NCBI GenBank assembly: GCA_002110465.1
Contig: NEED01000073.1
Span: 62,001-126,000, forward strand
Origin: an unicellular cyanobacterium SU2
GTDB lineage: Bacteria > Cyanobacteriota > Cyanobacteriia > Cyanobacteriales > Microcystaceae
Direction of reading: 5' to 3'
DNA length: 64,000 nt
Made by a program: the position numbers and the translations under genes. This document shows positions 21,045 to 26,244 of the stretch, piece by piece; the stretch's first letter is position 1; every line of letters begins with the position of its first letter. The notes beneath the pieces were generated by a model. The model did no database searches. It was not told the origin of the DNA and was given only the letters and a program-made list of their open reading frames with translations.

Positions 21045-21139
21045 TTAAAGAAAGAAGATTATAACATACACGGCGGAAACGAAAAGTTGCATCGCCATCA
21101 AGGGGAGTCCATATTTTAAAAATGTTTTAAAGGAAATTT
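21045..21139 (-). pseudogene. C-terminal remnant of an SLC13-family transporter
   Basis: On the minus strand the 31 codons before a TAA at 21045-21047 read ISFKTFLKYGLPLMAMQLFV followed by SAVYVIIFFL, the last membrane helix of SLC13/DASS-type Na+-coupled anion permeases. The frame runs straight into the left end of the IS4 relic at 21140. Its N-terminal counterpart is at 22464-22583; the more than 500 residues between are missing. Confidence 0.7.
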
Positions 21140-21174
21140 GCTCACGGGGTGACGACCACGTTAAAAGTCAAGCT

Positions 21175-22442
21175 GTGTCAGGAATGGGACGAATTTATGG
21201 TAAAAAAGATTCGGTCAGTTTACGTGAATCCGACCGAGAAATAAAAATGCTGTTACAATTGTATCGCAATACCATCGAATCCTATTTAACTCCCGACCAA
21301 TTGATCACTCTTGAAATCTTAGTTTGGTTGGTGCAAAATTATCAACAAATTAAGATAGAAAGGCTAGCTGCCTACTTGCCATTACCGATAAAATATGAAA
21401 GTCGTCGCCGTCGTTTGCAAAGATTTTTGAAGTTACCAACCTTGTCCATATCATTACTTTGGTTGCCGATAATTCAAAAAGTAATAGAGAAGAAAATTAA
21501 GAAAAAACAGAGGTTGTATATAGTTTTAGATAGATAGAACCCAATGGCAGGATAAGAATTTGTTCATGGTCGGGGCAATAATGTCAAAAAGAGCTTGGCC
21601 AATTTACGGGCAGTTTTTGAACAAGAAAGGAGCCAGTAATTTAGCTGAACAAAAAGCCATATTACGTCCAGTAATTAAATTATTTAAAGAGTATGAGATA
21701 GTCATTTTGGGAGACCGAGAATTCCACAGCGTAGACTTTGCCAAGTGGCTCACAAGAAAGAAAGTTTACTTTGTTCTCAGACAAAAAAAGAACACAAATA
21801 TCCAAATTAAGGGACAAGATTACTATCGGTTAGATGCTTTAAAAATTGCTCAAGGAAGCCAGCTATTTTTGAGAAACATAAAAATCACAAAAAAATGGCA
21901 AGTAAACCAAATATCAATGGGAGTCTATTGGAAAAGCGCACCGCCCGCGCTGAGGTTTCCTCAGCGTATAGGACGGAGCAAGAAGAAAATACAGAGGAAT
22001 GGGAGAGAAAGAACCTTGGTACTTACTAACGAATTTACCGAATTTAGCAGAGGCAGTCAAAGCTTATCAAAAAAGAGTAGGGATTGAAGCAATGTTTAAA
22101 GATTGTAAGACAGGAGGATATAATTTAGAAGGGTCAAAAGCATCAATTGAAAGATTAACCAGCTTAGTTCTATTAATCGCTATAGCTTATACAAATGCCA
22201 CTTTAAAAGGAAAATTAATTAGAATTAAAGGTCAGTCAAGCTATATCAATCGTTTCCGAAAAATTAAACAAAAGTTAACTTATAACAGTCATTTTTGGAT
22301 AGGAATGTATGGAACAAGCTGGATAATTTCTCATGAAGAAGTCAGAGAATGGGTAGAGGAATTAATGAGACTGAATCTGAATAAGCTTCCTTTTTATCTC
22401 AGGGGTCAACGTGCTATGTCCATCATACAGCAAGCATTCTAG
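21175..22442 (+). pseudogene. IS4-family transposase, frameshifted
   Basis: The coding frame probably began near ATG 21247 (MLLQLYRNTIESYL). It runs to IVLDR at 21537, where a 4-base duplication (GATAGATAGA for GATAGA) breaks it. The second part resumes as TQWQDKNLFMVGAIM and holds the IS4 catalytic Asp in IVILGDREFHS. A 46-base insertion at 21935-21980 breaks it again. The third part (KYRGMGEKEPWYLLTNLPNL... KRVGIEAMFKDCKTGGYNLEG) carries the YREK-like Glu region and runs to 22442. No intact transposase can be made. Confidence 0.88.
21935..21980. repeat. 46-bp GC-rich palindromic insertion inside the transposase
   Basis: Removing these 46 bases restores a continuous transposase reading (YWK joined to RRKYRGMGEKEPWYLL). 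The insert is GC-rich against an A/T-rich context and contains a hairpin CGCTGAGGTTTCCTCAGCG (21948-21966). The exact borders are uncertain by a few bases. Confidence 0.65.
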
Positions 22443-22463
22443 CTTCTTCGTCACCCCGTGAGC

Positions 22464-22583
22464 TAACTTGAATAAAATCAAAATGACGGCTACAGATAGG
22501 GCAGTTAAATCAGCAGATAGCCATTCAAAAGCAAATGCGAGTAAGGCAATGACAATGATCGAAAAGGTTAAGATAATTTCCAT
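22464..22583 (-). pseudogene. N-terminal remnant of an SLC13-family transporter
   Basis: ATG at 22583. About 40 codons encode a typical SLC13 start, MEIILTFSIIVIALLAFAFE then WLSADLTALSVAVILILFKL, two membrane helices, before entering the IS at 22463. It begins 20 bases after the P-ATPase stop on the same strand, so it was the second gene of that operon. The C-terminal remnant is at 21045-21139. Confidence 0.75.
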
Positions 22584-22603: not shown

Positions 22604-25432
22604 CTAAAAAGTTAACTTAGATTTAGATTTTTTAATCCAAACCCAGTGAAAAACTAACTTTTCCAATTCAATCCAAACAAACATTAAGCTACTGAATCCA
22701 AAACAGATCAAAAGTTCCGTGAGACTAAGAATATGAGTTCCAAAAAAGTTTTGGAAAGGAGGAAAATAAATTAACGAAATTTGTAACAATGAGGTCAATG
22801 TCACCGCCCCTAAGATGTAAGGATTAGAAAAAGGATTAAGGTGTAACGTTAATTGGCTATCGGAACGAACCGCCAACCCGTGACCCATCTGAGCTAAACA
22901 AAGGGTAGTAAAAACCATTGTTTTCCAGCGATTGGGATCACCCGATATCTGGGCGTGGTTGTAAGCCCAAACCATTAATATAATGGCTAAAACAGCAAAT
23001 ATAATCCCAATTCTGACCATATATAACCCTAGACCTCTAGAAAAAATACTTTCACGGGGACTATAGGGAGGACGCTGCATGACGTTAGGTTCTGCGGGTT
23101 CCATCGCTAAGGCTAAGGCGGGTAAACCATCGGTAACTAGGTTCATCCAAAGAATTTGTAAGGGGGATAAGGGAACCCCCCCTAAACCAATCAGGGGAGC
23201 CGCTGCAATGACTAAAACTTCCCCGATGTTACTGCCTAAAATGTACTTAATAAAGCGACGAATATTGTCATAAACTACTCGTCCCTCTTCGGTTGCTGCG
23301 ACAATAGTGGCAAAATTATCATCGAGCAAAATAGCGTCACTGGCTTCTTTACTGACATCGGTTCCGGTAATGCCCATCGCAATGCCAATATCGGCTTGTT
23401 TGAGAGCGGGAGCATCATTAACCCCATCCCCTGTCATGGCCACAAACTCTCCTTGATCTTGCAAAGCTTGGACAATTTTTAATTTATGTTCGGGGGTAAC
23501 GCGGGCATAAACACTGACTTGTGAGACCGCTTTTCTTAGTTCTGAGGAACTCATCCCCTGCAAATCTTGACCCGTGAGAATGGGATGATGGGGTTGAGTA
23601 ATGCCTAAGTCAGTGGCGATCGCCTTAGCGGTTAACCGATGATCTCCTGTAATCATAATCGGGCGAATACCAGCTTTTCGGCAGCGTAACACCGCTTCTT
23701 TCACCTCTTTTCGAGGCGCATCAACCATGGCCACTAATCCTAACCAAATTAGTCCGTTTTCTGCTTTTTCTTCCCCATTATCTTCGGGAACCTCCTTGAG
23801 AGGTTTAACAGCCAATCCTAAAACCCGTAATCCTTGGGCTGCCCATCGGTCATTCTGGGCTAAAATTTCTCTCCGTTGTTGATTGTTCAAACAAATTGCT
23901 TGGTTTTCTTGATAAACCGCCGCGCATCTTTCTAAAATGATCTCTGGGGAACCTTTGGTAAACAGGATATAGGGGTTCTGTTCTAAACCGGTGAGGGTTT
24001 TCTCACCAGTCTTCACCACAACAGACATCCGCTTCCGTTCAGAAGAAAAGGGGATTTCGGCAACACGGGGCATTTCTAACCATAAATCTTCTCGATAAAG
24101 TCCCCCTTTGCCAGCTAACGTTAATAAAGCTCCTTCGGTAGGATCGCCCAAAATTCCCCAGTTTTTTGACTTTTTATGCAATAAAGCATCATTACACAAG
24201 ACACAAGCCTTTAAAAGCTGTTTCAGTTCCTCGTTGATTTCGTATTGATCACTATCTTCGATAATAAAATCTCCTTTGGGGGCGTATCCTTCTCCTGTGA
24301 CTTGATAACGATGACTAAAGGTTTGTATCTGCTGAACTACCATTTTGTTTTGGGTTAGGGTTCCGGTTTTGTCAGAACAAATAGTAGTAACAGATCCCAA
24401 GGTTTCTACGGCAGGTAATTTACGAATTAAGGCTTGACGACGGATCATCCGTTGCGTTCCAATGGCTAAGGTTACTGTGACCACGGCGGGCAACCCTTCA
24501 GGAACGACGGCTACGGCCATACTCAAAGAAACTTCTAATAATTCCTCAAAATTTTGCCATCCTGACCGTAAAACTCCCACTGTTACCACTAAAAACACTA
24601 AAATTAGGGAACTACTTACCAAAACATTCCCTAGTTGGGACATTCTTTGTTGTAAGGGGGTGTCTTCGGCTTCGACTCCTTGAATGAGGGTGGCAATATG
24701 ACCGATCTCCGTGTCCATACCCGTTCGCGTGACTACTACTTTGCCTCGTCCCTGGACGACTTCTGTTCCTTGGAATACTAAATGTAAGCGATCGCCCAAG
24801 GGGACATCTTCCCCCAAAATAATGTCAGCTTGTTTATTAACGGTTTCGGCTTCTCCTGTTAAAGCAGACTCTCTTATTTGTAAGTTTTGGGCTTCGATTA
24901 AACGACCATCGGCAGCAATGGATACCCCAGCATCGAGTAACATGATGTCTCCTGGCACTAATTCTTTGGCCGCAATTTCTTCTACTTGGCCGCTACGAAT
25001 TACCCGCACTTTGGGGGAAGAAAGACGTTTTAAGGCAGCTAGGGCTTTTTCTGCTCTACTTTCTTGTAAATAGCCCAATAATCCATTTAAGATGACAATG
25101 GCAAAGATAGCGACAGCATCTTTTGGGAAAGTCCCTTGACGGATATCTAAAATTGCTGAAATGACAGCCACAGCCATCAACATCACCAACATAATATTGG
25201 TGAACTGTTCCCATAAAATAGCAAAGGGAGAACGACCACCAGTTTCTTTGAGTTCATTTAGACCAAAATATTGCTGTCGTTGTTGAATCTGTTGTTGGTT
25301 TAAACCTCTGTTAGCATCGCTTTGCAATTTTTCTAAGGATGCTTGGGGAGAAAGAACTTGCCATGAGGAAGTAGGTTCAGAAAAGGCAGGAGATACTTGA
25401 GTGGAGGTGCTAGGAAAGGTCATAGGAATCAA
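22604..25432 (-). CDS. P2A-type cation-transporting ATPase (calcium-pump-like)
   Basis: A 942-residue P-type ATPase in the plasma membrane. The N-terminal cation-ATPase domain is followed by actuator ALTGEAE, phosphorylation motif [13 protein letters not shown] near residue 355 and hinge [16 protein letters not shown]-like [13 protein letters not shown] near residue 670. Ion-site residues match calcium pumps: PEGLP in M4, SNIGEV in M5 and [12 protein letters not shown] in M6. Calcium is therefore likely, though sodium pumps of this subfamily exist. The remnant of an SLC13 gene follows after 20 bases. Upstream, at 26117-26244, is a c-di-AMP riboswitch on the same strand, implying control by c-di-AMP through a leader of about 685 bases. 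Confidence 0.92.
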
Positions 25433-25792
25433 AGTTAGAAAATTATGGCTAAATTTTGGTAATAGTTAGAAATGTTACCCAGCTAAATAGTTTATGGAAC
25501 TAAAAAACAAGGTATTCAAAAAGGTTATGGCGTAATTTATAGCTATCGGCAGATCATATCTTTCGAGGTTGGGTAGGAGATAAAAGTGTCAAGTAACAAA
25601 AGATTAAGTAAGGTTTCAATATCTTGAAAAAATGGGGATGGCCTCTGCTGAAAGATTAATGATTAATTGTGCTTAAAAATCAAATAATAATTGCTTAAGA
25701 CAGCAACCCAAAAAATCCAAAACCTTCGATTTGATTAACTTTTTTCCCATGAAGAATAGTTCATTTAAAAATTTAAAAATTTAAAAATTATA

Positions 25793-25812
25793 CCCCTTCT
25801 TTTAAGAAGAGG
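25793..25812 (-). terminator. Candidate terminator in the ATPase leader
   Basis: Minus-strand hairpin CCTCTTCTTAAAAGAAGGGG followed by TATAATTTTTAAATTTTT. The T tract is interrupted, so it may be weak. Confidence 0.4.
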
Positions 25813-25917
25813 CTTGAAATGCAGAAAATTATTAGTTTTTTCTTCTAAAATTTACTGCTTATTTTATGATTTAATTTTTAATTAAAAACTGAATCATGGT
25901 TCTAAAGCTAGGTATCA

Positions 25918-25960
25918 GAAAAAGCTTAGCGATACCAAAAATCTTGATACAAACGCTAAG
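25918..25960 (-). terminator. Candidate riboswitch-linked intrinsic terminator
   Basis: Minus-strand stem CTTAGCG / CGCTAAG (25954-25960 and 25925-25931) followed by C and a T5 run. It lies about 155 bases downstream of the c-di-AMP aptamer, so it could be its expression platform. An overlapping alternative hairpin GGTATC / GATACC shares bases with it. Confidence 0.5.
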
Positions 25961-26116
25961 AAATCTTTTCTCCACAAATTGTCTAAAATATAGTCACTGT
26001 TATTTTAATTTCATCTGTACTGCCTCAAATTCCAAACAACAATCCAAGTCAAAGTGCGGTCAAACTCAGAGTTCCTGAATGAAATCAAGACATTTTCTTC
26101 AAATGTTGATTCTCCA

Positions 26117-26244
26117 GTCTTCTCTCACTGCCTACGAAGTTAGCTGACGGGCTAGGACTGAGAGTTGTCCCTTTCTAAGTAGCTGTCCCCTAGAAATACG
26201 CCCCAAGATTGGTTCCTCCGTTCCCTTATGTCTTGATTGAAGAC
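26117..26244 (-). ncRNA. c-di-AMP riboswitch (ydaO/yuaA class)
   Basis: On the minus strand the closing stem is GTCTTC (26239-26244) with GAAGAC (26117-26122). In order it contains the class core elements: GGGAACGGAGGAACCAA, then TTGGGGCG, AACTCTCA, and CCCGTCAGCTAACTTCGTAG with GC, then GTGAGAGA. These match the ydaO consensus as I recall it, in sequence and order. The class binds cyclic di-AMP and usually turns off ion-transport or wall genes. The next gene on this strand is the P-type ATPase at 25432. Confidence 0.92.

Follow-up and report, generated by a model that had tools for sequence, protein, structure and literature searches.

Which gene is controlled by the only cyclic di-AMP (c-di-AMP) riboswitch of the unicellular cyanobacterium SU2? 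The riboswitch lies on the minus strand of a 64,000-nucleotide stretch of contig NEED01000073.1 (assembly GCA_002110465.1, positions 62,001 to 126,000), here called the window and numbered from its first letter, and the original prediction, made from these letters alone, had described it as a ydaO/yuaA aptamer with a 685-base leader ahead of a calcium-type P-ATPase. Comparison with related genomes suggests that the switched element is the start of a four-codon mini-gene and not the ion pump itself. We consider it probable that the locus is a translational c-di-AMP switch acting on a mini open reading frame (mini-ORF) at the head of a decayed ion-transport operon; the comparison supports the aptamer, a switch hairpin (H1), the pairing of the Shine-Dalgarno (SD) sequence, the position of the start and the history of the operon. 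The features are collected in Table 1, and genomes and riboswitch loci are cited by G and L numbers.

The predicted aptamer and its closing stem were both recovered. A cmscan search against Rfam matched the minus strand to RF00379 over the full model (1-134), above the gathering threshold of 38 bits, and the closing-stem pairs GTCTTC/GAAGAC are legible in the aptamer sequence. RF00379 was the only Rfam family at the gathering threshold in the window, and a single copy occurs in the 5.24 Mb genome (matches at E up to 0.001), which also encodes a putatively active diadenylate cyclase (DAC) domain (PF02457, 136.7 bits). The family is common in the cyanobacterial order sampled (179 of 291 genomes), and the aptamer class has been reported from cyanobacteria with osmolyte-related targets (PMC5986932, citing Nelson 2013).

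For comparison, 156 riboswitch loci were examined, hand-chosen among the matches listed; L151-L153 were left out because they duplicate G592, G591 and G244, and the gene classes of five loci were assigned by hand, in agreement with tblastn. The roughly 100 bases (b) past the aptamer are largely alike among the loci listed, and they hold two pairings under covariation. The base of H1, formed by the 3' tail of the aptamer and a 3' stretch about 40 b further on, folds at -11.13 kcal/mol with its own partner versus -9.86 kcal/mol with permuted partners (p 0.0002, n = 110 loci), as in G067, where AAGGAGUACCUGUGG is paired with UCGCAGGUAUCCCU; the inner arms gave p 0.008 in the permutation test. The 3' arm of H1 also pairs with the SD downstream, at -12.35 kcal/mol for the loci's own sequences versus -9.76 kcal/mol for permuted ones (p 0.0002, n = 42 loci), with p 0.64 to 0.89 for four control region pairs. 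Loci entered this test with a GAGG core, a start at +70..+112 (counted past the aptamer) and one representative per group of similar loci (46 or 42, and 38 under stricter removal), and p 0.0002 is the floor of its 5000 permutations. With 38 loci the SD pairing again reached p 0.0002 (controls 0.54 to 0.90), and it was significant separately in 27 ATP-binding cassette (ABC) importer loci and in 19 other loci (p 0.0001 each). Examples are the 12 pairs of G591 and the 9 pairs of G023.

H1 and the SD-sequestering hairpin (H2) share one arm and are mutually exclusive, which is the layout of a translational switch. When the platform was folded in isolation, without the aptamer, H2 with a closed SD was obtained for the window, G591 and G592, and H1 for G129, G278 and G267. 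The mean probability that the SD is unpaired, over 46 loci, was 0.20 with the tail free and 0.09 with the tail masked.

The start served by this SD is that of a long gene in the commonest class of loci. Among the 63 loci in which an ABC importer is the first recognised gene, 35 carry an SD and ATG at +70..+112, which in 34 cases open a frame of at least 200 codons (typical start +94 to +100). A second set comprised 49 long leaders, with a start beyond +170 for the first recognised gene, which is slr0753-like (40), exoD (6) or the ATPase (3). Here an SD and ATG were found at +85..+112 in 30 of the 49, versus 1.25 expected from dinucleotide shuffles and counts of 2, 1, 6 and 0 in neighbouring 28-b intervals; after removal of similar leaders the figures were 17 of 35 or 15 of 28. 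The frame so opened has 4-13 codons in 23 of the 30 leaders and 37 to 75 codons in seven. The peptide encoded in the window, MKLK, corresponds to MKLT in G129, MRST in G592, MKIA in G591 and MKVT in G169, and six-codon mini-ORFs occur in G086 and at two G244 loci; G036, of the same family, has a corresponding mini-ORF with a weaker SD, as judged by eye. Over five species of three genera, which form one clade, the ATG and TAA of the mini-ORF are invariant, and none of the six nucleotides in codons 3 and 4 is constant. Where slr0753 is the first gene, its own start falls within 170 b in nine loci. In G601 and G602 the switched start opens a 71-codon ORF that begins like an ABC permease, which suggests that the start was inherited from an ABC permease gene.

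Under the mechanism that we propose, the conserved 3' tail of the aptamer would serve as the 5' strand of H1. Once H1 opens, its 3' arm would be free to pair with the SD of a start about 100 b downstream, forming H2 and closing that start, which would be that of an ABC-importer permease in the commonest class and of a mini-ORF in many exoD, ATPase and slr0753 copies, the window included. c-di-AMP would choose between H1 and H2; the mini-ORF would be translated; and its translation would act on the ATPase, which starts about 600 b further on, through transcript stability, termination at the hairpin T1 or processing. Characterised c-di-AMP riboswitches shut expression off (PMC6488665, PMC10117811), and this sign would fit if the bound aptamer took up the tail, so that H1 opened and the SD closed. 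More tentatively, as a possibility short of probable, the platform may be common to cyanobacterial c-di-AMP riboswitches and may have moved from ABC permease genes to ion-efflux operons, leaving behind a mini-ORF of 4-13 codons through whose translation c-di-AMP would control a pump hundreds of bases downstream. In the B12 riboswitch leaders with upstream ORFs of Mycobacterium tuberculosis (PMC11260477), which respond to another ligand, a short ORF is translated and influences the gene after it; ppe2 of that species is described as working mainly by termination-reinitiation, whereas hundreds of bases separate mini-ORF and gene here.

Several observations weigh against this mechanism. Regarding the window itself, H1 is the weakest of the five H1 hairpins folded (z -1.5), and the SD pairing (-10.2 kcal/mol) is no better than the cross-pair mean of -10.3 kcal/mol. 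The isolated platform leaves the SD mostly closed, and that of the window stays in H2 with or without the tail mask. A stem between the 5' flank of the aptamer and the tail, tried as the link to the ligand, was marginal (p 0.047) and was rejected. Regarding the comparison, the permutation test takes loci as independent once similar ones have been removed, 19 of the 49 long leaders lack an SD and ATG at +85..+112, and 11 of the 30 that have them are 13-codon copies from near-identical genomes of one genus (g3). Short ORF length was dropped as a sign of selection, frame 0 being no shorter than frame +2 in 17 deduplicated leaders. The mini-ORF may also be the relic of a lost permease start, as the stumps in G601 and G602 illustrate.

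Table 1. Features of the riboswitch locus and of the region behind the ATPase, in window coordinates.
Feature	Position	Strand	Evidence
c-di-AMP (ydaO/yuaA) aptamer, RF00379	26115..26255	-	cmscan 71.7 bits, E 1.1e-14, full length
Switch hairpin H1: aptamer 3' tail with stretch ending ATTCAG	26075..26119	-	minimum free energy (MFE) -10.7 kcal/mol, z -1.5
3' arm of H1, anti-Shine-Dalgarno stretch	26080..26092	-	8+3 pairs, with wobbles, to GGAATTTGAGGCA
Alternative hairpin H2, sequestering the Shine-Dalgarno	26021..26092	-	isolated platform MFE -24.2 kcal/mol, P(SD unpaired) 0.07
Shine-Dalgarno core GAGG	26023..26026	-	sequence; 8 b before ATG
Mini-ORF ATG AAA TTA AAA TAA (MKLK)	26000..26014	-	SD core GAGG 8 b upstream; comparative position
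Terminator-like hairpin T1	25918..25960	-	-11.9 kcal/mol with tail CTTTTTCT; similar hairpin in G129, z -4.3
Terminator-like hairpin T2	25792..25813	-	-12.0 kcal/mol, z -3.9
exoD remnant, N-terminal part (FFQDIETLLNLLLL)	25591..25632	-	tblastn 71% over 14 aa, E 2e-4; nucleotide match to G592 exoD, E 3e-8
exoD remnant, C-terminal part	25481..25567	-	tblastn 48% over 29 aa, E 5e-7
P2A-type (Ca-pump-like) P-ATPase, likely start ATG 25423	22604..25432	-	Pfam PF00689, PF00122, PF13246, PF00702, PF00690
SLC13/CitMHS-type gene, N-terminal remnant (first 40 residues)	22464..22583	-	72.5% over 40 aa to G129 protein, E 6e-11
Insertion sequence, transposase in pieces, between both gene stumps	21123..22480	+	inverted ends 21123-21176/22427-22480, 70% complementary
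slr0753-like transporter, C-terminal remnant	21063..21143	-	59% over 27 aa, E 5e-5

The switched SD could instead load 30S subunits for a downstream start that has no SD of its own, the mini-ORF being left untranslated. The 22 b before the exoD or ATPase start lack an SD core in the eight genomes inspected, the window included (the slr0753 starts of G036 and G169 do have one), and a precedent is provided by the SAM-II riboswitch of Sinorhizobium metA, in which a switched SD and AUG1 stand upstream of the start that is used, with a terminator between them and a leader small RNA (sRNA) (PMC9373788). That system differs in its ligand, in its unused AUG1 and in its spacing of 74 b, versus about 170 to 590 b here; this distance and the mini-ORF stop kept in the five-species set speak against recruitment from afar, which we regard as highly improbable.

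Transcription attenuation is a rather unlikely but more substantial competitor. It would have c-di-AMP promote termination at T1 or T2, as in Bacillus kdp and Streptomyces rpfA, and make the mini-ORF incidental. The two hairpins that had been proposed as terminators (25918-25960 and 25793-25812) both fold, at -13.0 and -12.0 kcal/mol. T1 is of fair quality and followed by a U tail (z -1.8, 8 of 200 shuffles as good); it in the scan of leaders gave -11.9 kcal/mol with none of six shuffles at -7, and a similar hairpin is present in G129; in the terminator scan T2 was the sole terminator-like site, with 0.8 expected by chance. Hairpins of -7 kcal/mol or lower occur in 10 of 36 comparable leaders versus 4.0 expected, a mild excess in a scan covering at most +105..+330 with six shuffles per leader. 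What is doubtful is thus the role of the two hairpins as a conserved platform: 26 of the 36 leaders have none such, and terminators were set aside as the general platform and kept as a rival. By eye, the 5' arm of T1 was also noticed to pair with AGCTAA in the aptamer core.

Published work also speaks for attenuation. The characterised members of the RF00379 class are described as ending transcription (PMC6488665, PMC10117811), and a transcriptome survey reports termination at ydaO-yuaA loci (PMC12121620). In Synechocystis 6803 the leader RNA of slr0753, Ncr1680, is catalogued as a separate sRNA, and slr0753 is transcribed by read-through from it (an 'actuaton'; PMC5386190), a pattern that fits attenuation or processing in the leader. 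A slr0753-like gene also ends the operon of intact relatives of the window, whereas the available descriptions of the Synechocystis leader mention neither exoD nor an ATPase (PMC10117731, PMC5386190). On the other side, no conserved antiterminator was noticed, in a comparison that included no systematic search for antiterminators, and the platform element that covaries here is SD sequestration, unlike the terminating platforms described for the class. A promoter scan was uninformative (2 found versus 3.8 expected).

The 685-base leader of the original prediction was found not to be one regulatory unit, because its last third, from about +420 on, consists of the remains of an exoD gene; the conserved switch region is the first 115 b. 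The two exoD traces stand in the correct N-to-C order, and none of 300 shuffles (maximum 22.3) reached the 29.6 bits of the best ExoD match in the leader. The C-terminal trace is matched at the nucleotide level by G129 (E 2e-13), G592 (3e-14) and G591, with E values ranging to 1e-14, and the matches extend into the ATPase start. The remains span roughly +420 to +690 and leave +115 to +420, which holds T1 and T2, unaccounted for by exoD. A second, intact ExoD gene is present at another place in the genome. The order riboswitch-exoD-ATPase with an intact exoD was found in G129 (exoD protein PF06055, 196 bits), G592, G086, G103 and G244, in the last with a split ATPase, and exoD is broken in G591.

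Behind the ATPase, the SLC13 gene that had been proposed as a former neighbour was confirmed as an N-terminal remnant, followed by an insertion sequence with PF01609 in one of its three ORFs and by the C-terminal stump of a slr0753-like gene; elsewhere in the genome the best match to slr0753 reaches 25% identity. In G129 and G592 the ATPase is followed by SLC13 and then slr0753 (in two frames in G592). Because the remnants in the window match this gene order, an ancestral operon riboswitch-exoD-ATPase-SLC13-slr0753, decayed here to the ATPase alone, is likely. The SLC13/CitMHS transporter of the G129 operon (594 aa) carries two TrkA_C stretches. TrkA_C is taken by us to be the same domain as RCK_C. 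RCK_C domains bind c-di-AMP in other proteins (PMC10117811), and by analogy this transporter may be a second c-di-AMP target within the operon. On the far side of the insertion sequence lies a gene for a prokaryotic cation-chloride cotransporter (PF21555, PF21554; 18810-20987, plus strand), convergent to the decayed operon.

Such decay also speaks for a relic, in which the gene once served by the riboswitch is gone, mini-ORF and leader are leftovers, the ATPase runs on its own promoter and c-di-AMP control has been lost here. exoD, SLC13 and slr0753 are all decayed in the window, ABC-permease-like stumps are present in other leaders, and an ATPase match (E up to 1e-300), found in 199 of the 291 genomes of the order, is riboswitch-linked in at least 7 of the 199. 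We regard a relic as unlikely: the aptamer scores on a par with those of relatives, the ATPase frame is intact, and SD, ATG and TAA are kept while the codons between them vary.

The original prediction had named a P2A ATPase as the nearest gene on the same strand, and the first ORF of 80 aa or more to follow is indeed this gene, at 22604-25432. It has 942 aa counted from TTG; ATG 25423 is a likelier start than TTG 25432 (the ORF of G591 begins MTFPTTSTP), and with ATG 25423 taken as the start the distance from riboswitch to ATPase is 691 b. The translation contains PEGLP, and the residues aligned to SERCA N768, E771, N796, T799 and D800 are all identical. We take these SERCA positions to be calcium-binding residues, and PEGLP in transmembrane segment 4 (TM4), N/E in TM5 and N/T/D in TM6 to be the motifs of P2A Ca2+-ATPases. 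The protein stays under the NCBIfam equivalog cut-offs for PMR1 (TIGR01522, 702 vs 798.3) and SERCA (TIGR01116, 658.9 vs 703.4) and just exceeds that of the PMCA model (TIGR01517, 512.2 vs 507.05). It is similar over nearly its whole length to the P2A calcium ATPases lmo0841 (the best PDB match), SPCA1 and SERCA, and in the alignment a Gln of its C-terminal membrane part takes the place of an Arg in lmo0841. "Calcium-type", as predicted, is a fair label for the aligned residues and does not establish the substrate.

Among the 156 loci, a P2A ATPase lies within 4.5 kb downstream on the same strand in nine genomes of seven genera and two families (G000, G129, G007, G591, G592, G086, G103, G244 with the ATPase in two ORFs, and G249, where it stands after ABC genes and exoD), and this shared linkage supports the ATPase as the putative surviving target of the operon. 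The ATPase share among these loci is not an unbiased rate because G103 and G244 were added for their known adjacent ATPase. The first recognised gene was an ABC importer at 63 loci, slr0753-like at 49, USP at 11, ExoD at 6, DUF937 at 4, the ATPase at 3, GT at 3 and PMT2 at 2, with 12 others and 3 without any. Conversely, 12 of 32 named ATPase loci were scanned (11 titled cyanobacteria, one Chloroflexaceae), and a riboswitch was found upstream in three (G592, G591, G244); the other nine showed none in the DNA examined, at most 5 kb upstream and far less in two cases. Of 39 ATPase loci, 13 have an adjoining exoD, including some without a nearby riboswitch, such as G266 and G169. The riboswitch linkage is a recurrent minority arrangement of the exoD-ATPase pair.

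Four small one-contig genomes of the same genus (G182, G192, G230 and G252; 2.5-3.1 Mb) have no match to the riboswitch and none to the ATPase at E 1e-300, and it looks as if both had been lost on genome reduction. G607 (4.6 Mb, 87% complete) gave no riboswitch match either.

Regarding other targets, the ABC importer is the commonest (for instance L072, +86 to +3226 past the aptamer), and the ABC proteins of G086 match NMT1_2 and, above cut-off, the nitrate permease model TIGR01183. At L071 and L072 (G103, G086) and L080 (G175) a single ABC operon is preceded by two riboswitch copies, spaced about 0.5 kb; in G103 and G086 the first copy is followed by a 78-codon ORF. At L239 (G590) the riboswitch stands ahead of a kdp-like operon, in which KdpA (PF03814, 769.8 bits) is followed by a 689-aa P-ATPase that is read as KdpB and shows 35% identity to the window ATPase; the layout of L238 (G589), judged by size, is the same. 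At L079, L087, L088 and L105 the riboswitch precedes an ORF of 66-74 codons (such as MKNYYKQWILLAKQELNGIV) and then a gene weakly like DUF937 (E 1e-4, below cut-off).

The control of a calcium-type pump by c-di-AMP had been called unusual. The linkage to the ATPase is borne out by the nine genomes, whereas control of ion efflux as such had already been published for the cyanobacterial gene slr0753, which is under a c-di-AMP riboswitch (PMC10117731, citing Mantovani 2022 and others), so that the ATPase extends a known regulon. slr0753 was not found in the proteome data of a salt-stress study (PMC8670252). Cation P-type ATPases are also preceded by the Mn2+ riboswitch (PMC11477304), whose ligand is the exported metal and not a second messenger. 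No description of the platform, the mini-ORF or the ATPase link was found in the literature searched; Nelson 2013, Block 2010 and Mantovani 2022 may already include the ATPase or the platform in their gene lists.

If the proposed reading is true, one operon would link c-di-AMP to a calcium-type pump, to ExoD and to an SLC13 transporter that carries TrkA_C (RCK_C) domains, and the role of the signal in cyanobacteria would be wider than potassium and osmolytes. The platform offers a concrete model for the action of cyanobacterial c-di-AMP riboswitches, and it would mean that a riboswitch can change its target gene and yet keep its switched start codon.

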